Position numbers and translations under genes: made by a program
Assembly: GCF_034424215.1 (NCBI RefSeq)
Contig: NZ_CP139960.1
Span: 930,001-994,000, forward strand
Length of the DNA: 64,000 nt
Direction of reading: 5' to 3'
DNA from: Niabella yanshanensis
GTDB taxonomy: Bacteria; Bacteroidota; Bacteroidia; Chitinophagales; Chitinophagaceae
Notes under the pieces: generated by a model
What the model saw: the letters and a program-made list of their open reading frames with translations, nothing else
The model's database searches: none
What the model was told of the DNA's origin: nothing
Part shown: positions 1 through 24,486 of the stretch, piece by piece
How the letters are laid out: each line of letters begins with the position of its first letter
Numbering within the stretch: the first letter of the stretch is position 1

Positions 1-395
1 GCGAGACTCTGCGCCACAGAAGCATTAAAATCCGCTTCAAAAACCGAACCTTCTTCTTTAAAATCGCTGCCCTCTACCAATACAAAATCGAATTGCTCTT
101 CGAGCTTTTTATATTTGTTGATGATGGTTTCATACACTTCGTTCAGCTTGCCCTGGTTCTCCATCTCGCTCAGCTCCGACCTCGTGAATGCATAAGCATC
201 CTCATAATTCATATTGATCTTAAAATGTGTGAGTATGGTATCAATATGATTGTCTTTAGGCTCATGGCTATCGATCAGCGGTTTGAAATAAGCTACTTTA
301 GTAGTAGTACGCTGCAACATCTGCATCAGGCCCAGGCTGATCAATAATTTCCCGCTCTGCGCAGTAGGAGTTATTACATAAACGGAACGGTTCAT
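1..395 (-). CDS. pta: Phosphate acetyltransferase, N-terminal part (cut by window edge)
   Basis: Only the first 131 codons are in the window; the 3' part lies to the left of base 1. The protein begins MNRSVYVITPTAQSGK, followed by a segment ending AYFKPLIDS. This resembles the dethiobiotin-synthetase-like N-terminal domain of long-form Pta, which converts acetyl-CoA and phosphate to acetyl phosphate and CoA. The reading starts at the ATG at 393-395 and stays open to the edge. The catalytic PTA_PTB domain is not visible, so the call rests on the N-terminal domain alone. A free-standing BioD-like or cobyrinate-synthase-like protein is the alternative. An AckA gene would be expected next to it, outside the window. 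Confidence 0.7.
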   Translation of the reverse strand, partial: MNRSVYVITPTAQSGKLLISLGLMQMLQRTTTKVAYFKPLIDSHEPKDNHIDTILTHFKINMNYEDAYAFTRSELSEMENQGKLNEVYETIINKYKKLEEQFDFVLVEGSDFKEEGSVFEADFNASVAQSL

Positions 396-4234: not shown

Positions 4235-5791
4235 TTATTTTTCGTTTACTTCCCGTTTCCTGTTCTTTTTCCAGGTACTGAATAACAGATTGGGCGCCAC
4301 TTCCGGTTTGGGGAAGAACAGGCTGGCCACATATCCAACTCCAATTAATACCAAATGGCTGTATACGCCCAACATGAGTTTATTATGTGTAAAATTATAG
4401 GATCCTAAATCGAGCAACAACTTAGGATCTTTTAAACCAATAGGCGTAGAGGTGAGAAAGGCATACGCTGTAAAAAGAATACAGGTGATAATCCCAATAT
4501 TAACACCCTGCCGGTTAGCACGTGCACTGAAAAGGCCCAGTAGAAATATGCCCACGATACCACCAGAGAAAATAGCATATATGGTAAATATAATTCCCAA
4601 TACGCCTTCATCCCCCGACAGAATGTAAAGCGCACCAATACCCACTGTTAACAAACCAGAGATCACCACAAACAGTTTACTGGCCTTTAAATACTGCTTA
4701 TCCGTCTTACCCGGAACGATCTTTTTATAGTAGTCTTCCACACCTACTGCTGCCAGCGAATTCAGATCTGCGCTTAAACTGCATATTGCCGCAGATAAAA
4801 GGGCTGCAATAATAAACCCAATCACACCCGGTGGTAACTGTGTCATAATGAAATGCGGGAAAGCAGCTTCTGCTTTCATACCAACCGGTGCACCATTCTG
4901 TTGATAGTATACGAATAAAGCGGTACCAATCAGCATAAACATGGTCCAGATAGGCACTGTTAATGAAATGCCGAGGAAAGAGGCCTTAATAGCATCCTTA
5001 TCTGTTTTCGCAGTCAAATATCTTTGTACCACTGTTTGATCGGTGGCATATTTTTGAATGGCATAAAAAGCTCCGTTGATGATCATAACGATCAATGTAA
5101 GTTGCTTAAAATCGAATTCATAGGGACCGAAACCGGTGCGGTTATTTTCTGTCGCAATCCTTATAGCCTCAGGAATACCGCCTTTAATAGAGCCTAACAG
5201 CACCGTTAAACATACGATACCACTAAAGAAAAGCATAAAGCCCTGGAATACATCCAGCCAGATTACGGCCTGTATACCTCCCTTCAAATTCACAATTATT
5301 AATATAACACCTACTACGGCTAATACAATAAAAGGATTGACATGAATCATCTCTTTAATGGCAATGGCAATCAGAAACAGCACAGTACCCATTCCGGCAA
5401 ACTGCCGTATGATAAAAGATAGAGAACTATAGTATCGTGCGAAACTTCCAAACCTTTTTTCAAAGTATTCATAGGTACTTAACCCAATCGATTTCCTGAA
5501 TAAAGGCACAATAAACCATATACATCCCAACAGTACCACCGGAACCATTAGCCCTTGTACGAGCAGGATCCAGTTGCTGGTATATCCCTGTGCGGGATAA
5601 CCCAGAAAAGTGACACTACTGATCAAAGTAGCCAGCAATGATAAACCTAAGGCCCAGGAGGGAATATTGCCTTTAGATAAAAAGAAGTTTTGAGTGGAAG
5701 TTTGCTTTTTCGAAAACTTAAAGCCCAGGAATACAGTAATTCCCAGAACAAGGATGATAATGGCAAAATCAATAAAGTGCAATCGGCTCAT
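4235..5791 (-). CDS. Sodium:solute symporter (SSS family)
   Basis: The protein has 518 residues, the normal length for the SSS family, with about 13 hydrophobic segments starting at residues 8-24. The stretch LSLLATLISSVTFLGYPAQGY is typical of the first broken helix with sodium-binding residues in these carriers. It should sit in the inner membrane and import a sugar, sugar acid or similar organic acid with Na+. The gene lies between the acid-sugar kinase and the STN-esterase, so a sugar acid is a reasonable guess. A second, different SSS carrier is encoded 7 kb upstream, which suggests that two substrates are handled. Specificity cannot be read from the sequence. Confidence 0.85.
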   Translation of the reverse strand: MSRLHFIDFAIIILVLGITVFLGFKFSKKQTSTQNFFLSKGNIPSWALGLSLLATLISSVTFLGYPAQGYTSNWILLVQGLMVPVVLLGCIWFIVPLFRKSIGLSTYEYFEKRFGSFARYYSSLSFIIRQFAGMGTVLFLIAIAIKEMIHVNPFIVLAVVGVILIIVNLKGGIQAVIWLDVFQGFMLFFSGIVCLTVLLGSIKGGIPEAIRIATENNRTGFGPYEFDFKQLTLIVMIINGAFYAIQKYATDQTVVQRYLTAKTDKDAIKASFLGISLTVPIWTMFMLIGTALFVYYQQNGAPVGMKAEAAFPHFIMTQLPPGVIGFIIAALLSAAICSLSADLNSLAAVGVEDYYKKIVPGKTDKQYLKASKLFVVISGLLTVGIGALYILSGDEGVLGIIFTIYAIFSGGIVGIFLLGLFSARANRQGVNIGIITCILFTAYAFLTSTPIGLKDPKLLLDLGSYNFTHNKLMLGVYSHLVLIGVGYVASLFFPKPEVAPNLLFSTWKKNRKREVNEK

Positions 5792-5878: not shown

Positions 5879-7009
5879 TTACACATCTTCATATAATTTA
5901 TATTGTTGCCTGATGGGTTCCGGTAGGTTATAACTACCCGGCTTAACGGTAATTAACATGTCGCCTGCTTTCATTTGAACTACCCCACGTTCCCATTCAT
6001 ATACCGGCTCAAAACAGTTTATACCAAAAGCGTGGAAAATAGCGGCAGCCGTAGCCCCACCCTCTATTAGTAGTTCATCTATTCTGAATTGACCGGCGAG
6101 CCTTTTTACTTGTTCTGCCATTTTTAAACGCAGGTGTGCAGCTTCAAACGCAGACGGGTTAATAGTTTCATCAAATGCAACAATAAGCTGCTGATGTTGT
6201 TGTAAAATCTGCATCGCCTTTTCAGCCCATATATCCAATCCCCGGCTTCCATTCATTATACTACTGCCTATATAAGCGGTATAACTACTACCAAAATACC
6301 GGATCAGCTCTACACTTTTATTAAATGATGTACCACTAACATATACATGAGCATTGCTTCGAAAAGGCTGGCCTGCTCTTATTTGTTTTTTATAACTACG
6401 CTTTAACAGAGCTTCAAAAAAATCGCCAGATCCTGCGGCAATACAGCACGCATCTACACGCGCCGCCCATTGATCTACTTCTTCACCGCTTGCAGCAGAC
6501 GATACTATGTTTAAGCCCATGAATAGTTCTTCACCTTTATGGAGTACTTTGACAGGGTGATCCAGCATTTCAGCAATATCTGAGGACTGTATGGCAAATT
6601 CAGGATCTTTTGCAAAGCCGGTGTGGCTGATTGCAATACCATCGATCAAATACTGCCCGTTCCTGATTGTTCTGCCTAAGGAAGGATTAGCTGGTAAGAT
6701 CAGGGCTTTCGCTATACCCAGCACTTCCATCTGTATATTCAGCTCATCAGCAACATAGCCTCTTAAAACAGAATCGGTCTTTTTGAATATGAAATCCGGT
6801 TGCAGTTGCACAGCCACCTGTGTAGCTAATTTCACAGCCTGCAAGGCATCATCCTTTTGCATTGACCGGCTATCTGTTGAAATAATATATACATCGGCAT
6901 CACCCTGCAGTGATCCGTCGAGGCAAAGCGAAACCTTTAAGCCGTAGCCCAGGCTTATACCCGCGAGCTCAGCCGCCCCTGTAAAATCATCTGCAATAAC
7001 TACGATCAT
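5879..7009 (-). CDS. Four-carbon acid sugar kinase family protein (DUF1537, OtnK/DtnK-like)
   Basis: The protein starts with MIVVIADDFTGAAE, the family's N-terminal motif. It also carries FKKTDSVLRGYVADEL and, near the C-terminus, the nucleotide-binding IEGGATAA and KPGSY motifs. Family members phosphorylate acid sugars such as D-threonate, D-erythronate, L-threonate or 3-oxo-isoapionate at O4. At 376 residues it is shorter than many members (about 420), with a compact linker. Its gene lies next to a PdxA-family gene apart from an inserted IS element. Kinase plus PdxA2 is a known pair that turns 4-phospho-threonate or -erythronate into dihydroxyacetone phosphate and CO2. It was probably cotranscribed with pdxA before the insertion. 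Confidence 0.82.
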   Translation of the reverse strand: MIVVIADDFTGAAELAGISLGYGLKVSLCLDGSLQGDADVYIISTDSRSMQKDDALQAVKLATQVAVQLQPDFIFKKTDSVLRGYVADELNIQMEVLGIAKALILPANPSLGRTIRNGQYLIDGIAISHTGFAKDPEFAIQSSDIAEMLDHPVKVLHKGEELFMGLNIVSSAASGEEVDQWAARVDACCIAAGSGDFFEALLKRSYKKQIRAGQPFRSNAHVYVSGTSFNKSVELIRYFGSSYTAYIGSSIMNGSRGLDIWAEKAMQILQQHQQLIVAFDETINPSAFEAAHLRLKMAEQVKRLAGQFRIDELLIEGGATAAAIFHAFGINCFEPVYEWERGVVQMKAGDMLITVKPGSYNLPEPIRQQYKLYEDV

Positions 7010-16348: not shown

Positions 16349-19099
16349 TTAATTAGTAAACTGATAATTACCGCTGCCTATACGTAGTGTAGCTATTCCA
16401 TTTTCCCATTTTAGCAAAGAAACCCCTTCGGCATTGCTTATAGCTTTCCCCTCCTCTTTTATAGATGTTGCCGTAGCTGCAGGAATATGAATAATTGCGG
16501 AACTGTTAGCCGGTACTTCTATTTGCCATTGTATTTGGTTTCCGTTTCTTTTCCACTGGCTTTTAATATCACCCGCGGCAGATTGATAAGCTGCTTCAAC
16601 ATTATTGAGCTGTTGCACAAAAGAAGGCTTCATCTCTATTTCTTTAAATCCGGGCGCTGCCGCTTTTATACCTCCCAGGTCCTCAAACATCCAAATCAGC
16701 AAATCGCCTAAAAGCATAATATGATTTTGCGAGTTCATTTGCGGATTCGCGGTATTGCCATTCCATAGTTCCCAGATGGTTGTTGCACCATTCTCGATCA
16801 TATACCCCCAGCTCGGATAAGTCTTATTGGACGCCAGCGTTAAAGCAGCATCAGCTTTCCCATGTTGTGTTAATCCACGCATCAGCCACTGCGTACCAAT
16901 AACCCCGGTGCTGATATGCATATTATCTGACTGGAGCTTTTTAACAATATTTTCAAATACCTGCTGCTCTTTGCCATCAGGTGTCATACCAAAATACAAT
17001 GGCAATAAATTGGCGGTTACAGTACCATTGTCATATTGGGAAGTTTGTGTTCGGAAAAATTTTTTGTTGAAGGCTGATTTGATATTGGCTCTCAAAGCAG
17101 TAAACGCTGCAATGTCTCGATCGTTACCTGATATTTTTGCAAACCGTTTCATAATACCCAGCAACCGGTAATAGTAAGCGGTTGCCAGTAACTGCCCGTT
17201 GGTCGTACGTGTGCTATCCTGCGATTTGATCATTTTCAGATCTTCGGGCGGTACACACCAATCTCCATATTTATCCTTAGTTACAATGAAATTTTTCATG
17301 TACTTGCCTTTCATGTAAGCCAACCATTTTTTCATGGAAGGATAATGCTTTTTGATGCTTTGCTGATCTCCGAATTGCTGGTGCAACATATCTGCTACCA
17401 AAATATAAGTGCCGGGCCAGGTAACATTATCACTATAGTAATTCCAATATGCAGGCGCTACATCAGGAATCGCGCCTTCTGTCGTTTGCGACTCTTCAAT
17501 ATCATCCAGCCATTTAGCATATAGCGATGCATTGTTAAAAAGGAAACTTTCACCGTAAGCGCCCTGCGCCCGATCACCCAGCCAGGGCTGCCGCTCGTTA
17601 CGTTGCGGACAATCAACCGGCATACCTTTGTAATTGGAAGCTATTCCCCACCATGCATTTTTGACAATATTATTGACCACTTCATTTGAAGTTTTCAGGG
17701 TTCCGGCAGTTGTCATTTGGTCATACACCAGATGTCCTTCAAAATCGCTAACCGAGGGCGTTCCGGGCCAACCCATAATTTCTACATAACGAAAGCCATG
17801 GTATATAAAGGTTGGATGCCAGGTTTCTTCGCCTTTTCCTTTCAAGGTATATACATCAGTGACACGGGCATCACGAAGGTTGGCAATATACAGTTGTCCA
17901 TCGGGTTGCAGGCTTTCGGCAAACTTCATCTTTACTTGCGCACCTCTTTTACCTTTCACTTTTATTTGCAACCATCCCGATAAATTCTGACCCATATCCA
18001 GTATATATATATCCTCTTTCAATTTATTAATCGACACAGGAGCCAGCTTTTGCATCACTTTCATATGCTTTGTTGGCTGCGGCGTTACTTTGCCTAAAGG
18101 AGCTGCAACCAGTAGGGCTTTCAACCATTGACCATCATTATAACCCACATCTGCCCATCCACTCAATTCTTTCGTGGCATCATATTCCTCTCCGTCATAT
18201 TCGTTATTGGTGCGTATCGGTCCATCAGCTGTAAACTTCCAGCTTTCATCAGAAATGATCGTTTGAGTTGTTCCATCATCATAAATAAGATCCATTTGGA
18301 ACAATAGCTTGGGGAAGCCGAAATTGTTGATTTTTTGAGGCTTGTAGTTCTGCCTCATGGTAAAGAAACGTCCGTTACCCAGCACAACACCAATAGCATT
18401 CTTACCTGATTGAATATGCTCCGTTACATCAAATGTGTTACTCAAAACAGACTTCCTGTAATCCGTAGGTGCTGGTGCTAATACCTGGTCACCCATTTTT
18501 TTACCATTGATGCGTAGTTCATACATGCCCAGGCCCACCAGATTAACAAAAGCCTTTTTTAGTTTTTTTACCGAACTAAATTCTTTACGATAGTAGCGGG
18601 CGGATAATCGAGACCACTGAGAAACGCTGTCCCAGGGAAATGCCTTGTCGTAACCAATCCATTTAGCTTTCCAATCCCCGTTATTTACAAAGCCAAGCGT
18701 GAAAAACATGGGTTTACTCCAGGCCTCTTCTCCTTTATTGGTAACAACTTTTATTTTCGTATAATAATATTGATTAGGCTTCAGTGCACTCCCTTTATAT
18801 GGTATCAATAACGCATTGTCACTGTTGATCTTTCCTGAAGACCAGGCATCACCAATATTTTTCTCCAGGTCGGCCTTAGAAGTTGCTACCAGTATTTCAT
18901 AAGCTACCTGTTTAACAGCTCTTTTGTCAGAGCTGATCTGCCAACTGAAACGTGGCGTTGCGGTACCAATGCCGATGGGATGCGACTGCTGTTCTATCTG
19001 TACATTCTTAACTTCTAAACTCTGTGCGTCAACCTTATTTTGCAGAACAAAAATATATGCGGTTAAAAATAAAAAAGCGTATTTAAAACTGTATTTCAT
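16349..19099 (-). CDS. Alpha-L-rhamnosidase (GH78)
   Basis: The 916-residue exported protein (signal to about residue 25) has the GH78 order: N-terminal fibronectin-like part (residues 27-135), rhamnosidase N domain (about 145-330), a beta-sandwich ending HGFRYVEI (435-441), an (alpha/alpha)6 catalytic domain (about 460-815) and a C-terminal sandwich. The catalytic acid is E502 in DCPQRNERQPWLGD and the base E777 in TTIWELWNG. It should remove terminal alpha-L-rhamnose from pectin side chains or plant glycosides in the periplasm. The start abuts the stop of the DUF1016 gene with no gap, suggesting translational coupling. Confidence 0.93.
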   Translation of the reverse strand: MKYSFKYAFLFLTAYIFVLQNKVDAQSLEVKNVQIEQQSHPIGIGTATPRFSWQISSDKRAVKQVAYEILVATSKADLEKNIGDAWSSGKINSDNALLIPYKGSALKPNQYYYTKIKVVTNKGEEAWSKPMFFTLGFVNNGDWKAKWIGYDKAFPWDSVSQWSRLSARYYRKEFSSVKKLKKAFVNLVGLGMYELRINGKKMGDQVLAPAPTDYRKSVLSNTFDVTEHIQSGKNAIGVVLGNGRFFTMRQNYKPQKINNFGFPKLLFQMDLIYDDGTTQTIISDESWKFTADGPIRTNNEYDGEEYDATKELSGWADVGYNDGQWLKALLVAAPLGKVTPQPTKHMKVMQKLAPVSINKLKEDIYILDMGQNLSGWLQIKVKGKRGAQVKMKFAESLQPDGQLYIANLRDARVTDVYTLKGKGEETWHPTFIYHGFRYVEIMGWPGTPSVSDFEGHLVYDQMTTAGTLKTSNEVVNNIVKNAWWGIASNYKGMPVDCPQRNERQPWLGDRAQGAYGESFLFNNASLYAKWLDDIEESQTTEGAIPDVAPAYWNYYSDNVTWPGTYILVADMLHQQFGDQQSIKKHYPSMKKWLAYMKGKYMKNFIVTKDKYGDWCVPPEDLKMIKSQDSTRTTNGQLLATAYYYRLLGIMKRFAKISGNDRDIAAFTALRANIKSAFNKKFFRTQTSQYDNGTVTANLLPLYFGMTPDGKEQQVFENIVKKLQSDNMHISTGVIGTQWLMRGLTQHGKADAALTLASNKTYPSWGYMIENGATTIWELWNGNTANPQMNSQNHIMLLGDLLIWMFEDLGGIKAAAPGFKEIEMKPSFVQQLNNVEAAYQSAAGDIKSQWKRNGNQIQWQIEVPANSSAIIHIPAATATSIKEEGKAISNAEGVSLLKWENGIATLRIGSGNYQFTN

Positions 19100-20206
19100 T
19101 TATAATAATTCTTTTAATGCTTTAGGATCTGGTAAAATACCTTTGTACTTCGCAGGAAGTTCTTTACTTGTTTTATAAGTGGCAACACCCATAGATTTAT
19201 TAAAATCACGGAAGGAAAACTCCACCACCTTATCTGTTTTGCTTTTGCATAGTACAATTCCTATCGAAGGATTTTCGTGTGGCTGCTTCACCAAGTCGTC
19301 CAAAGCTGACAAATAAAAATTCATTTTACCCAGGTACTCAGGTTTGAACTTACCCTTTTTTAGTTCGAAGGCAACCAGGCATTGCAATTTTCGATTAAAG
19401 AAGAGCAAGTCAATAAAGAATTCTTCATCATCAACGATAAGCCTGTTCTGATTGCCAATAAATGCAAAATCGCTCCCTATTGATAATATAAATTTTCTAA
19501 TGTTACGAACAATAGCATCTTCCAATTCCCTTTCATCAACCAGATCAGGATCTTCTATATTTATAAAATCCAACAAATATTCATCCTTAAAAATCTGGAG
19601 TGCTTGTTCTCTCTGTATTTCATTATTAATAGTAGCAGCGAAGTTATTTTTCAGCTTACCTTGCTTTTTATGAGCCTGGCTTTTAATAGCGTGGATTAAC
19701 GTATCTACAGATAAAAATTCTTTGGCTGTCTTTGCAATATAAAAGACACGTTCTCCGACTGTTTTTGTCTTTATTAGTATTTCATAATGATGGGTAAAGC
19801 CGATAGACAGAAAGTCCTTCCTGAATTCGTCCGTTGACAACGGACCAAATTCATCGGCTTTAACAGTTTTCTTTTTTGTTGCAGTTCTTACTTTTTTTTC
19901 CAATTGGTCCGTTACTAACGGACCAATTGGAAAAAAGAATTCCCATTCCGTATAGAATACACGCATCTTCTTCAAACTGGTAATTGAAAAACCTCTTAAC
20001 CCCGGAAGCTCTTTTTGCAGATCCGTTGCAATTTTATCCAGGGTGCCCGATCCCCATTTTTCACTTTTAGATTTCTCCACAATCAGCTTACCAACAGAAA
20101 AGTACAATAGCAATAATTCCTTATTAGCCAATGCTGCAGCCCGATACCTGCTGGTCAGTATCATGGACTTTAATTCCTTAATGGTTTGTTTGTAGTGGGA
20201 TAACAT
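19100..20206 (-). CDS. DUF1016/YhcG-type PD-(D/E)XK nuclease-like protein
   Basis: The 368-residue protein has the two YhcG parts: an N-terminal helical domain (KQTIKELKSMILTSRYRAAALANKELLLLYFSVG, then GLRGFSITSLKKMR) and a C-terminal PD-(D/E)XK domain from about residue 205. The nuclease motif is seen as FFIDLLFFNRKLQCLVAFELKKGKF, with Asp and E-x-K, and later IGIVLCKSK. Family members are linked to mobile elements and genome defence, but their role is poorly known. It is out of place between GH78 and GH2, with gaps of 0 and 6 bases. The middle (about residues 90-130) carries two in-frame GPL(V/S)TD(Q/E) inserts encoded by palindromes. There is no sign of a frameshift. Confidence 0.85.
   Translation of the reverse strand: MLSHYKQTIKELKSMILTSRYRAAALANKELLLLYFSVGKLIVEKSKSEKWGSGTLDKIATDLQKELPGLRGFSITSLKKMRVFYTEWEFFFPIGPLVTDQLEKKVRTATKKKTVKADEFGPLSTDEFRKDFLSIGFTHHYEILIKTKTVGERVFYIAKTAKEFLSVDTLIHAIKSQAHKKQGKLKNNFAATINNEIQREQALQIFKDEYLLDFINIEDPDLVDERELEDAIVRNIRKFILSIGSDFAFIGNQNRLIVDDEEFFIDLLFFNRKLQCLVAFELKKGKFKPEYLGKMNFYLSALDDLVKQPHENPSIGIVLCKSKTDKVVEFSFRDFNKSMGVATYKTSKELPAKYKGILPDPKALKELL
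19823..19852. repeat. Intragenic palindrome A in DUF1016 gene
   Basis: GTCCGTTG and CAACGGAC form perfect 8-base arms around a single A (19829-19845), extended by GAATTC and CAAATTC with a one-base gap. It shares the GTCCGTT...AACGGAC core with palindrome B. It encodes EFGPLSTDEF. Confidence 0.8.
19894..19936. repeat. Intragenic palindrome B in DUF1016 gene (21-base perfect arms)
   Basis: Arms of 21 bases (TTTTTT, then CCAATTGGTCCGTTA and its reverse complement) flank a single C at 19915. The arms match perfectly. It encodes a FFFPIGPLVTDQLEKK segment in frame. Confidence 0.9.
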
Positions 20207-20212
20207 AGGTTT

Positions 20213-22969
20213 TTATTTATCTCCAAATTTAAACCATAAAACGATTCTCAGCGCCCGTGTAGGATCCTTCTCGTAATCGTAATAAATATTATCCTGGCCC
20301 ATGGGACCGGTAGTTTCCCGGGTTTGCGTTCTGGAACCAATTGACGGGATTGCATTCATAAAAGAGATATCACCTTTTGGAAACCAGGGCTCATAATTAT
20401 GCCATTGATCAGTTTTCCATTTGGCGCCATACAAACGCAGAAACAGATCCTCCGTCTCTGTAGCTATTGCAAAACTCTGTCCTTCGGTGTTAATGATTCC
20501 ACCGTAAAAGTTTGCGTGATAACCTTTAAACTCAGGATAGTCCCATTGCTCACCTGTTTCGGTATTGTTGTATTTTTTATTCCACACATCAAATGCGCCT
20601 CCTTTTAACCGGTTCTTCCATACACGATAAGGTCCTTTACCCATATAAGTTACAGACCGCATCTGGTTCTCAGGCAGATCGAAATTAATACCCAGCATTT
20701 TTGTATGTAATGAATCGGGGAAGTAATTCACTTGTAACTGAATCCAGCCATTGCGATAGATTACCCATTGCAGTGTATTGAAGCTTTTCTTCTTATCAAA
20801 AGCAGAGCTGATCACTAAATTCTTATCCTTGTCATATTTATAAGAAATTTTCGAAAAATTATTCACGCCTTCCTGTATCACCGGGCCATTCGACAATGGA
20901 ACAATGCCCTTATCGTTACGAACGATCTTTAATAGGCCATTGGTTCTATCAAACGACAATTCAATATCTTTTACTTTTACATCATAAGTCTTACTGGTTT
21001 CACGAATCTGTATATCCTGCTCATCTTTATTCAAGGCCACTAACTCTTTTGCCTTTTGTGCAGGCCTGCTAATGGTAAAGCTCCAGGTAAACAACTCCTG
21101 TTGGTATTGGTCCTTTACAGTTATATATAATACATCATAAGATTTCCAGTCTGCTGGTAATATTACCTGCAGCTGTCCTTTGCCGCCAGCAGCTATGTCA
21201 GGCGCTGAGATCTCGCCATCCAATACCTGTTCTTCTTTCATACCTATGCGTTTTAGCTTCCAGGTGTAAGTACAGCTATTTGCATTAGCAAACTGATAGC
21301 GATTTTCTATATTGAATCTGCCGTCAAATCCAGCTGCTATTTCTCTGCGCTCAATTAATATCGGACTCCACACTTCTTTAATCGTAAAAAAGCTGCCTTC
21401 TTTTTCGTGATGAGGTCCTACTATTCCGTCAGCGCCACGATGCTTATCGGTGTCCAGCGAATCCTTCTTATCCTTTCTTACCACACCCTGATCAGCAAAG
21501 TCCCAAAGAAAGCCGCCTGCACTTAAAGGATTATTCCACATTTTATTCCAGTAATCGTCTAACCCCGCGCCATGTCCGCCATCGAACCATCCATGCAAAA
21601 ACTCAGTAGGCATCACTATTTCACGGCCATTTTCAAAATTGCTCACACCATAGTTGTACTGGCGGTAGTGCTGCGTTTCGATACCATTATTCAATTGCCA
21701 GGGATGAATTACCACGCGCTTCTGTAAATCGTATTCACCAAAAAGTTGATCCAGTTCCGGATTACTGCCACCTTCATTACCATTCGCCCAGATAACAATA
21801 GAAGGATGATTACGATCGTGCTCAACCATTTCTTTCACGCGTAATGAACCGGTGGGCGTATCATAGTGGCCATGCCAGCCGGCTAACTCATCAATCACAT
21901 ACAGGCCAAGTGAGTCACAAACATCGAGAAAATGCCCGTCTGGCGGATAATGGCTCATGCGCACTGCATTCATATTCATTTCCCTGATCAGCAATACATC
22001 TTCAACACTGTTTTGATAACTGGTGGTTCTGCCACTTTCCGGTCTGAAAGAATGCCTGTTAACCCCCTTAAACTTCATTTTTACGCCATTCACATAAATG
22101 CCATCCCGCTGTTTAACCTCCACGGTTCTAAAACCAAATTTCTTTTCGACCGTATGAACCGGTTTTCCTCCGCTGGACAGAGTATACACTGCCTTATACA
22201 AATTGGGAAATTCGCTGCTCCATAAGTCAGGTTCCTTAACCGCCAACGCGTACTCCTGCATATTATCCGCTGCGGATTCTTTTTCAGCTACCAGTTTACC
22301 TTTCTTATCAAAAATTTTGATGCTTAGTGTATTTTGCTTACCATGAGCAGTAGCTTTTGTACGGAAGCTTCCGTCAGCTTTTGCATCAATACTGATATCG
22401 TCGATATAAGTTTGAGGTAATACCTCCAGCCAAACGGGTCTGAAAATACCGCCAAAAAGCCAGTAGTCGGCTTCACGCTCAGCAGCATTAACACTTTTGT
22501 TAGATGAATGCTTATCTACCTTTACCTCCAGTAAGTTTTCTTTCCCATAGTTCAATAATTTTGAGATATCATATTTGAAAGCATAGAAAGCGCCCTGGTG
22601 TTTCGCGCCTGCCAACCGGCCATTGATCTTTACTTCAGCATCTGTCATAACACCTTCAAAAACGATATTGATGTTTTTACCTTTCCATGAAACGGGCACT
22701 TTAAATTTCTTTCTATACAACCCTGATTCTTTTCCCCTGACACTGTCCTTTGCAAAACCATAGTCATACTTGCCAAAGCCCTGCAACTCCCAGCAAGAAG
22801 GTACACCTATTGTAGTCCACTTACCAGAATTCATTCCCGCGGTACAATAAAAGTCCCACTGTACCATATCATTGTTACCTCCACCACTCAGGTACTGCAC
22901 TTCTGTTTGCTGAGCCTGTGCCTGTGCTGTAATCACTAAAAGAAAAATATATAAAAAACTACGCATCAT
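20213..22969 (-). CDS. Glycoside hydrolase family 2 (beta-galactosidase-like)
   Basis: The 918-residue exported protein has a signal peptide ending ITAQAQAQ (residues 1-20). It shows the GH2 order: sugar-binding jelly roll (about 40-185), Ig-like domain (about 187-285), TIM barrel (about 288-560) and further beta domains, the last resembling the beta-galactosidase small-chain domain. The acid/base is E399 in IVIWANGNEGG and the likely nucleophile E456 in VMPTEFLHG. It should cleave beta-galactosides or a related terminal residue (glucuronide or arabinopyranoside in some pectin loci). It is in the same run as GH78 and the esterase. Confidence 0.9.
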   Translation of the reverse strand: MMRSFLYIFLLVITAQAQAQQTEVQYLSGGGNNDMVQWDFYCTAGMNSGKWTTIGVPSCWELQGFGKYDYGFAKDSVRGKESGLYRKKFKVPVSWKGKNINIVFEGVMTDAEVKINGRLAGAKHQGAFYAFKYDISKLLNYGKENLLEVKVDKHSSNKSVNAAEREADYWLFGGIFRPVWLEVLPQTYIDDISIDAKADGSFRTKATAHGKQNTLSIKIFDKKGKLVAEKESAADNMQEYALAVKEPDLWSSEFPNLYKAVYTLSSGGKPVHTVEKKFGFRTVEVKQRDGIYVNGVKMKFKGVNRHSFRPESGRTTSYQNSVEDVLLIREMNMNAVRMSHYPPDGHFLDVCDSLGLYVIDELAGWHGHYDTPTGSLRVKEMVEHDRNHPSIVIWANGNEGGSNPELDQLFGEYDLQKRVVIHPWQLNNGIETQHYRQYNYGVSNFENGREIVMPTEFLHGWFDGGHGAGLDDYWNKMWNNPLSAGGFLWDFADQGVVRKDKKDSLDTDKHRGADGIVGPHHEKEGSFFTIKEVWSPILIERREIAAGFDGRFNIENRYQFANANSCTYTWKLKRIGMKEEQVLDGEISAPDIAAGGKGQLQVILPADWKSYDVLYITVKDQYQQELFTWSFTISRPAQKAKELVALNKDEQDIQIRETSKTYDVKVKDIELSFDRTNGLLKIVRNDKGIVPLSNGPVIQEGVNNFSKISYKYDKDKNLVISSAFDKKKSFNTLQWVIYRNGWIQLQVNYFPDSLHTKMLGINFDLPENQMRSVTYMGKGPYRVWKNRLKGGAFDVWNKKYNNTETGEQWDYPEFKGYHANFYGGIINTEGQSFAIATETEDLFLRLYGAKWKTDQWHNYEPWFPKGDISFMNAIPSIGSRTQTRETTGPMGQDNIYYDYEKDPTRALRIVLWFKFGDK

Positions 22970-23034
22970 TATTATTTAATCAACCTCCAAATTCTGTCGC
23001 TAATCCCAGCGCTTATCCATCAACCAGCCTTTAA

Positions 23035-24486
23035 CTATCGAGGATTAAATTGATCCTTTAACTTATTATTGGTTCTAAAGGGCAATGCCGGCAATCCTTC
23101 CGCATTAAACAAATTTGCCTTGGCATCCTCCCTCCAGGCAAAACGAACCGAATGAGGATTTTTTATACCAGCAGCATTTACCCAAACCTTGTTATTTTTT
23201 ATCATCGCAGTCGCCGCATGATAATTACCTTTTTCATCTGCTACTTCAAAATAGCTCAATGCAGCACCGTCGTTGCTTTTGAGCCCTGTTCCTTTATAAT
23301 CAAAATCGATAATAAAGGATTGACCTTTTTTTACAGCCGACTTAAACAGTGGACCCATGGCAGGTTGGCTATCCACCTTGTAAGTATTACTTAATGCAGA
23401 AGTTGCCAATCGTTCGCCTACATCCCATTTATTTACCGGGTGCAGGTCTGCCGGATCTTCAATCAGATCAGTAGTGGCTATCATAACTGTATTAGAAATT
23501 GCAAGCGCCGCAGCCTGTGCTTCCCAAAACTCGGGTTCGCTATACACGGTGTAAGGGCGATCTTTTGCTTTGGAATAATAATAAGGCGCAATCTGCACGT
23601 AATAAAACGGCAGCTTGTTATTCTCCCACTTGGTTCTCCAGTAGTTAATCAGCGATTTCATTTTGTATGTGTACTCTAATCGCTCCTGCAGGAAACAGTT
23701 GTTCTCTCCCTGGTACCATAAAAACCCTTTTAATGAAAACGGGATCAGGGATTCTATCATTGTCGTATAAAACTTACCCGAAGCATCTTTGATCCTGTGT
23801 GTGGAATCACCGTTAGTATTATTGAAGAAGTTTTCTTTCAACATGGCTTCAGCCGGCATCCAGGGCTCTATGCCACTGCCTGGAATGGCAGCGGAGATAA
23901 CTCCAACCGGCACCTTTAATTTTTGCTGAAGCTCCTTGGCAAAAAAATACCCCACGGCAGAAAAACTACCCAAAGCAGGAGCGGTTGCTTCATTCCATCC
24001 ACTGTGCGTAGAATCCGGATTCATTTTCTTTCTTTCTACCAGGAAAATACGCAGTGACTTATTGTTAGCCTCGGCCACTTCATTAACAGGCCAGTTGGCT
24101 CCGGCCGGCGGTTTCAACTTTGCAAGCTTGCGCATGGCGAATTCCATGTTGGATTGTCCGGAACATAACCAAACTTCACCAACCAGGATATGATTTAATA
24201 GTATCTGTTCCTTCCCCGCTTTAATATAAATAGAAGCATTGTCGAAAGAAGCCTTCAGAGGGTTTAAATAAAGCTTCCAGGCTCCTTTAGTATCTGCAAT
24301 AGCTTTTTTATGCTGACCTTTAAACTCAACAATTACCTCCTGTCCTGCATCCGCCCAACCCCATATTGCCACGGAAGCACCTTGTTGCAATACCATATTG
24401 TGCCCTAATATTTTAGGGAGCACCAGTTCTGCATGGCTGCTTTGTGCCAGGAAAAGGATTAAAAATATGGATAAAAAAAGTTTCAT
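23035..24486 (-). CDS. Exported sialate O-acetylesterase-like SGNH esterase
   Basis: The 483-residue protein has a signal peptide (residues 1-19). It begins its mature part with VLPKILGHNMVLQQGASVAIWGWA, as in Bacteroidota sialate O-acetylesterases, then a small beta domain. Next comes the SGNH nucleophile block VWLCSGQSNMEF (GQSN at 110-113), FLWYQGENN, and a C-terminal LHPVNKWDVGERLA with the Asp/His pair. Such enzymes remove O-acetyl groups from sugars. In a pectin locus this fits deacetylation of rhamnogalacturonan side chains as well as sialic acid. It lies between GH2 and the MGH1-like gene in the same direction. Confidence 0.87.
   Translation of the reverse strand: MKLFLSIFLILFLAQSSHAELVLPKILGHNMVLQQGASVAIWGWADAGQEVIVEFKGQHKKAIADTKGAWKLYLNPLKASFDNASIYIKAGKEQILLNHILVGEVWLCSGQSNMEFAMRKLAKLKPPAGANWPVNEVAEANNKSLRIFLVERKKMNPDSTHSGWNEATAPALGSFSAVGYFFAKELQQKLKVPVGVISAAIPGSGIEPWMPAEAMLKENFFNNTNGDSTHRIKDASGKFYTTMIESLIPFSLKGFLWYQGENNCFLQERLEYTYKMKSLINYWRTKWENNKLPFYYVQIAPYYYSKAKDRPYTVYSEPEFWEAQAAALAISNTVMIATTDLIEDPADLHPVNKWDVGERLATSALSNTYKVDSQPAMGPLFKSAVKKGQSFIIDFDYKGTGLKSNDGAALSYFEVADEKGNYHAATAMIKNNKVWVNAAGIKNPHSVRFAWREDAKANLFNAEGLPALPFRTNNKLKDQFNPR

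Follow-up and report, generated by a model that had tools for sequence, protein, structure and literature searches.

A carbohydrate operon containing a nuclease gene

The window analysed here, a stretch of 64,000 nucleotides from Niabella yanshanensis, contains a tightly packed minus-strand run of carbohydrate genes (16349-24486): an SASA esterase, GH2, yhcG and a rhamnosidase, with intergenic gaps of 6 and 0 bp. Within this operon yhcG has no separate promoter region, and a yhcG ORF occupies the GH2|rhamnosidase junction in six Niabella genomes and is absent from nine. The window gene (19100-20206, minus strand) encodes a protein of 368 aa composed of DUF1016_N and YhcG_C. Its scores against Pfam PF17761 (E=3.6e-26) and PF06250 (E=2.1e-55), 92.3 and 187.3 bits for cut-offs of 32.8 and 32.5, place it in the YhcG/DUF1016 family, and by HMM match alone it also resembles the candidate phage defence family PDC-S02 of PADLOC (E=9e-124). 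The C-terminal part carries a PD-(D/E)XK active-site core, D266...E281-x-K283 (19358-19411, minus strand), that is conserved in the family: D266, E or D281, and K283 are each present in 240/240 proteins, and the best Foldseek matches are PD-(D/E)XK nucleases such as NucS/EndoMS. Between the window protein and its relatives, divergence is much quicker in the N domain than in the nuclease domain (for example, 39% against 73% identity with the relative L021).

Two palindromes lie within this gene. The larger is a perfect inverted repeat at 19894-19936, with 21-base arms around a 1-base centre, and the shorter relative has perfect 8-base arms at 19829-19845; both had been noticed in a first-pass annotation of the window, and both are borne out. 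With the edges that hold across the family, they correspond to two 27-bp sites that have no strand: site 1 at 19902-19928 (AATTGGTCCGTTACTAACGGACCAATT) and site 2 at 19824-19850 (perfect arms GTCCGTTGACAACGGAC), matching each other at 84% across 25 nt. They are indeed coding and in frame in the minus-strand ORF, specifying the peptides GPLVTDQ and GPLSTDE. Other details of that annotation need correction. A shared core with a single central N has zero matches in the window, and the true core is GTCCGTT-NNN-AACGGAC. The sites had been placed in a linker between the two domains; both fall inside DUF1016_N (residues 11-181), where they encode part of a disordered stretch between N-domain helices (pLDDT<50 at residues 99-122 of the AlphaFold model).

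In the 5.54-Mb genome the exact core has two copies, both in the window gene, so the palindromes are not a product of chance. A search of 99 relatives, as proposed at first pass, recovers the core in three congeners only, as a pair in the orthologous yhcG and always upstream of the rhamnosidase gene. The same genome holds a yhcG paralog with a core of its own, GTCAGAC..TGTCTGAC, present exactly twice and both times inside that paralog. A broken yhcG paralog in this genome (L012, C1:3797746-3798200) retains the palindrome CATTTGTGCAGCAGGTTGCTGCACAAATG.

A palindrome at one position throughout the family

The survey covers 254 distinct YhcG/DUF1016 genes of nearly full length. Most weight falls on Bacteroidota, viral contigs and E. 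coli, to which plasmids from several phyla are added, and whole-genome coverage is mainly of Bacteroidota and E. coli. Used as a direct query, the window protein has no match among the viral contigs, whose members are found with a family profile. A symmetric site is present at the same protein position in 94.5% of the 254 genes, as against 5.1% of synonymous-codon shuffles (83% against 5.6% in an earlier set of 156 genes), and by a looser test 253/254 genes have at least one site and 168 at least two. In the 156-gene set, 124/130 strong palindromes have their centre at the first position of a codon. In homologs of other genera and phyla, palindromes with different sequences occupy the equivalent protein position, as in E. 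coli K-12 yhcG (palindrome AAAGATTTGGCAGACGCTGTCTGCCAAATCTTT, embedded 27-bp site AATTCGCCAGACAGTGTCTGGCGAATT) and in plasmid-borne genes of Rhodococcus, Collinsella, Arthrobacter, Vescimonas, Acidisarcina and Anabaena. The Anabaena plasmid gene (L207) adjoins a HepT-like gene and cas10d.

What had looked like inserts peculiar to the window gene is therefore a feature that fills the same position across the family. The encoded peptides vary widely (GPLVTDQ, GQTVSD, GTLSQ, QQPVAQ, ALRSK) and lie in the low-confidence AlphaFold loop 99-122, while palindromy is kept; this is the opposite of residues conserved in all orthologs without palindromic DNA, the pattern named at first pass as fatal to the idea. 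At the embedded site, conservation appears to act on the DNA rather than on the peptide.

Anatomy of the 27-bp site

Arm symmetry across the 254 genes is 0.83 at ±13, falls to 0.40 at ±14 and 0.24 at ±15, and has reached background by ±15. As symmetry is high to ±13 and then drops, the unit is 27 bp. Its layout consists of an outer AATT shell common to the family, a variable half-site, and a central C-R-N-Y-G. Among 240 genes there are 108 distinct six-base cores, and core similarity declines as protein divergence grows. Two copies within one gene agree at 83-89% per base at ±3..8, compared with 26-53% between genes, and a further copy of a gene's own core is present in 26/127 loci, against 0.4 with swapped cores. 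The spacings of paired sites range from 24 to 183 bp, and a search for helical phasing found no evident period in them. Few sites lie in non-coding flanks (4 in 240 loci), which means that the usual arrangement is not that of an ordinary upstream operator.

Sites of the same locus do not always agree in their outer bases. Those that share the inner core yet differ at ±7..9 stay symmetric in 93, 78 and 79% of cases at these positions, where a swapped control gives 7, 10 and 13%; the inner core was held fixed in this comparison, as looser site calling is biased. Such symmetric divergence within a locus argues against a fixed reader as the whole account. Perfect sites, in addition, extend past ±13 at about 50% per base over a background of 28%, the 21-base arms in the window being an example, and because they run on in this way arm-to-arm copying may contribute to them. 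Such copying may polish the palindromes; it would not replace the selection that fixes position, length, shell and code.

N-domain residues covary with the bases of the site

What could read a site of this kind? Mutual information was computed between the bases of the half-site and the columns of the protein alignment, with the residues encoded by the palindrome masked. The top covarying residues, 76, 79, 80, 138, 141, 167 and 168, are all in N-domain helices: AlphaFold helix 75-88 (19943-19984, minus strand), in which residues 76, 79 and 80 covary with bases -7, -8 and -5; helix 137-146 (19769-19798, minus strand), with residues 138 and 141 matched to bases -3 and -4; and helix 167-175 (19682-19708, minus strand), with residues 167 and 168 matched to bases -3 and -2. 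The latter two were likewise defined from the AlphaFold model together with covariation. Z scores reach 11.1 (76 with -7), 10.1 (167 with -3), 9.7 (138 with -3), 7.7 (80 with -5) and 6.9 (79 with -8), while shuffles within protein families reach 4.3-5.7, and DNA of the flanks or the shell reaches 5.2-6.1; in the C domain all columns stay at a covariation Z of 4 or below. The order of reading is spatially sensible, as helix 75-88 goes with the outer half-site and helices 137-146 and 167-175 with its inner part. A search by sequence found no PDB relative of the N domain.

The covariation can be written as a code. Arg76 goes with G at -7 (106/110), Arg168 with C at -2 (124/125), Arg or Lys167 with C at -3 (85/90), Tyr, Asn or Gln80 with A at -5 (118/122), Lys or Arg80 with C at -5, and Glu79 with C at -8 (27/31). 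These pairings follow known side-chain chemistry (Arg-G, Glu-C) and the logic of the DNA major groove. Among proteins of <45% identity, residues 138 and 167 together predict base -3 in 167/175 cases, where guessing the majority base succeeds in 11%; for base -5, prediction from residue 80 succeeds in 86% and the majority guess in 68%; residue 168 for base -2 and residues 76/80 for base -6 bring no gain over the majority base at this level of divergence. Applied to the window gene, the code gives the right base at -3, -7 and -8 and also at -5, there from two informative genes only; at -2 it fails, as D168 does not predict the base present.

Because residues and bases covary, YhcG very probably binds the palindromes embedded in its own gene as duplex DNA. 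The suggestion at first pass that the nuclease might recognise its own gene gains strong support from this covariation, which carries over between unrelated families. The site, its edges, the gene-specific core, its absence elsewhere in the tested genomes, the residue-base code and the intact active site were computed directly; physical binding and dimerisation of YhcG at the embedded site are what we infer. In the proposed mechanism, the palindromes would be cognate double-stranded sites of the protein encoded by the same gene. A YhcG dimer would read the 27-bp site with its common AATT shell, and the inner half-site (-2 to -9) would be read by the three N-domain helices acting like the recognition helices of helix-turn-helix proteins. 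The linker that holds the site is disordered and permissive and belongs to the same ORF, so that reader and target would be inherited together and drift together, which would explain why palindromy and position are conserved and sequence and peptide are not.

What binding might do

Within the cell, good sites are confined to the nuclease gene itself, so accumulated enzyme would be expected to bind, and perhaps to cut, its own gene. We infer that binding may serve the self-directed control of a dangerous nuclease, with the enzyme occupying its own gene and, once free enzyme accumulates, probably cutting it, a proposal whose chances we put slightly below even. In a rival reading the site would be an intragenic operator at which bound YhcG blocks transcription of its gene and so limits the nuclease. 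Almost all of the genes contain at least one site predicted to be of high affinity, the rest of the tested genomes has none, and I-TevI, both a homing endonuclease and an autorepressor, provides a precedent. However, a roadblock in Niabella would also stop the downstream rhamnosidase gene of the same operon, promoter-proximal copies are rare, and the rarity of flank sites together with the lack of a promoter belonging to the window gene speaks against self-recognition at an ordinary upstream operator. An intragenic operator is thus a serious candidate that falls a little short of an even chance.

A broader reading, held tentatively and with somewhat less assurance, is that YhcG forms a large family of long-site self-targeting nucleases, each cutting its own gene and any DNA that bears its site.

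Could the gene be a homing-type selfish element? YhcG would then cut gene-less alleles at the site and repair would copy the yhcG segment in, with embedded and flanking sites representing target copies and insertion edges. The E. coli locus offers the best case for this. The gap between gltD and nanQ lacks yhcG in 944/5426 E. coli genomes, and in the one strain read, Ec55, the empty gap contains one perfect 27-bp site; in K-12, a single site borders the island gltF..yhcG to the left and another to the right, and the sequence of the empty locus is that of the left flank as far as the site, continued by that of the right flank from beyond it. The nuclease residues are intact in all 240 genes, and Niabella yhcG is a clean single-ORF insertion. 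However, deletion between two flanking sites would yield the same E. coli pattern, and the nine Niabella genomes with an empty GH2|rhamnosidase junction have no site at the locus. The gene-bearing allele, moreover, retains all of its sites, which sets it apart from classical homing alleles; at the K-12 locus five sites still match the core, although one is degenerate, so that the target is not disrupted there. Homing in this sense is less likely than not, and the same holds for homing-like spread at alleles that bear a site, which could accompany or replace self-control as the outcome of binding.

Explanations without a DNA reader

A hairpin in the yhcG mRNA, acting in autogenous translational control or processing, would account for arms that covary within a locus at ±7..9. 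The mismatches are of the wrong type: at ±2..9 there are 56 GT and 104 AC, with no excess of the G-U type, and an RNA operator hairpin was rejected on this ground. The same site also occurs in a non-coding context (the empty gap of E. coli), and the fixed 27-bp edges and a residue-base code with major-groove logic fit poorly with RNA. Such a hairpin is very improbable.

A mutational by-product, in which palindromes in an unconstrained linker arise and persist through template switching from one arm to the other, is more improbable still. Symmetric extension of the arms beyond ±13 and symmetric divergence of same-locus sites are what it would produce, but it leaves the fixed edges, the AATT shell, the shared core of distant copies and the residue-base code without explanation. 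Mutational arm copying may act on top of selection.

Rickettsia palindromic elements, selfish units of about 100-150 nt dispersed over many genes (PMC4316617), resemble YhcG sites in being in-frame palindromes in coding DNA, and at first pass a spreading element of this type had been considered; YhcG sites are unlike them in measuring 27 bp and in being confined to the gene of their reader, with two copies per genome in the same gene (as for the window and paralog cores) and one gene family across phyla with a sequence that differs by gene, so that a mobile protein-coding element is the least credible of these readings and a dispersed one is refuted. REP/RAYT or IS200-like systems were likewise rejected, as Pfam gives DUF1016_N and YhcG_C only and no Y1 (HUH) transposase domain.

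Relation to known systems

DNA-binding proteins with a target inside their own coding sequence have precedents. Phage small terminase has pac within its own gene, the origin of pT181 lies within repC, which encodes RepC, and phiX174 gene A holds its cognate site within its own coding sequence. The sites of terminase, RepC and gene A serve the packaging or replication of one replicon, whereas YhcG is a whole nuclease family with gene-specific palindromes and a co-varying reader. To our knowledge, there is no other nuclease family in which self-embedded sites with a co-varying, readable code are the rule. Homing endonucleases, among which I-Ssp6803I is a PD-(D/E)XK enzyme, share with YhcG this type of domain and a long rare target, and a site is present at the empty locus of E. 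coli, though at none of the nine empty Niabella loci; unlike in these enzymes, the gene for YhcG itself contains the target, uninterrupted and in repeated copies. YhcG may, like I-TevI, be a nuclease and a self-regulator at once. A literature search, covering neither bioRxiv nor most subscription journals, found no report linking DUF1016/YhcG with palindromes and no description of a function, DNA target or embedded site for the family; within that literature, self-embedded cognate palindromes in a nuclease family seem unreported.

For a widespread family without an assigned function, of which E. coli yhcG is a member, self-recognition would supply from sequence alone a predicted DNA-binding activity together with its target and recognition code. 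The palindrome of each gene would predict which DNA its protein binds, and the co-evolution of protein and target in one ORF would leave specificity free to drift without external constraint. If YhcG does cut, this would amount to a large natural catalogue of long-site nucleases with their targets written in their own genes; and if the self-targeting reading holds, to a new selfish or self-limiting genetic logic, in which a one-to-one code for DNA binders or cutters with long sites, hundreds of them distinct, could be read from the genes.

Sites outside intact yhcG genes

Among the matches listed for the E. coli site in 5426 E. coli genomes, all are at the yhcG locus. The sites were also considered as phage targets, a candidate that was rejected, as the E. 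coli site has one weak match in 50,697 phage records. Viral contigs that contain the two Niabella cores have no DUF1016 gene and mostly miss the AATT shell; viral contigs L370, L372 and L376-L379, without DUF1016, carry AAAAGGTCAGACANTGTCTGACCTTTT, a terminator-like sequence that shares a YhcG core. The plasmid matches that were opened lie inside yhcG genes or remnants, with one exception, an orphan perfect site, AAATTAGTCAGACAGTGTCTGACTAATTT (L383:1501-1529), on a Cetobacterium plasmid without detectable yhcG.

Remnants and deletions are seen as well. Viral contig L375 holds two near-identical yhcG remnants (4705-4860 and 6025-6180; two sites plus ...EDINARNFYEIEAFF) as direct repeats, which flank a two-gene pair resembling an antitoxin and a PemK-like toxin. 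The yhcG genes of E. coli O157 (L196) and 2015C-3101 (L194) have deletions of 78 bp and 80 bp with nearly identical end points, about 20 bp to the right of site 1 and of site 2, and the 80-bp deletion breaks the frame.
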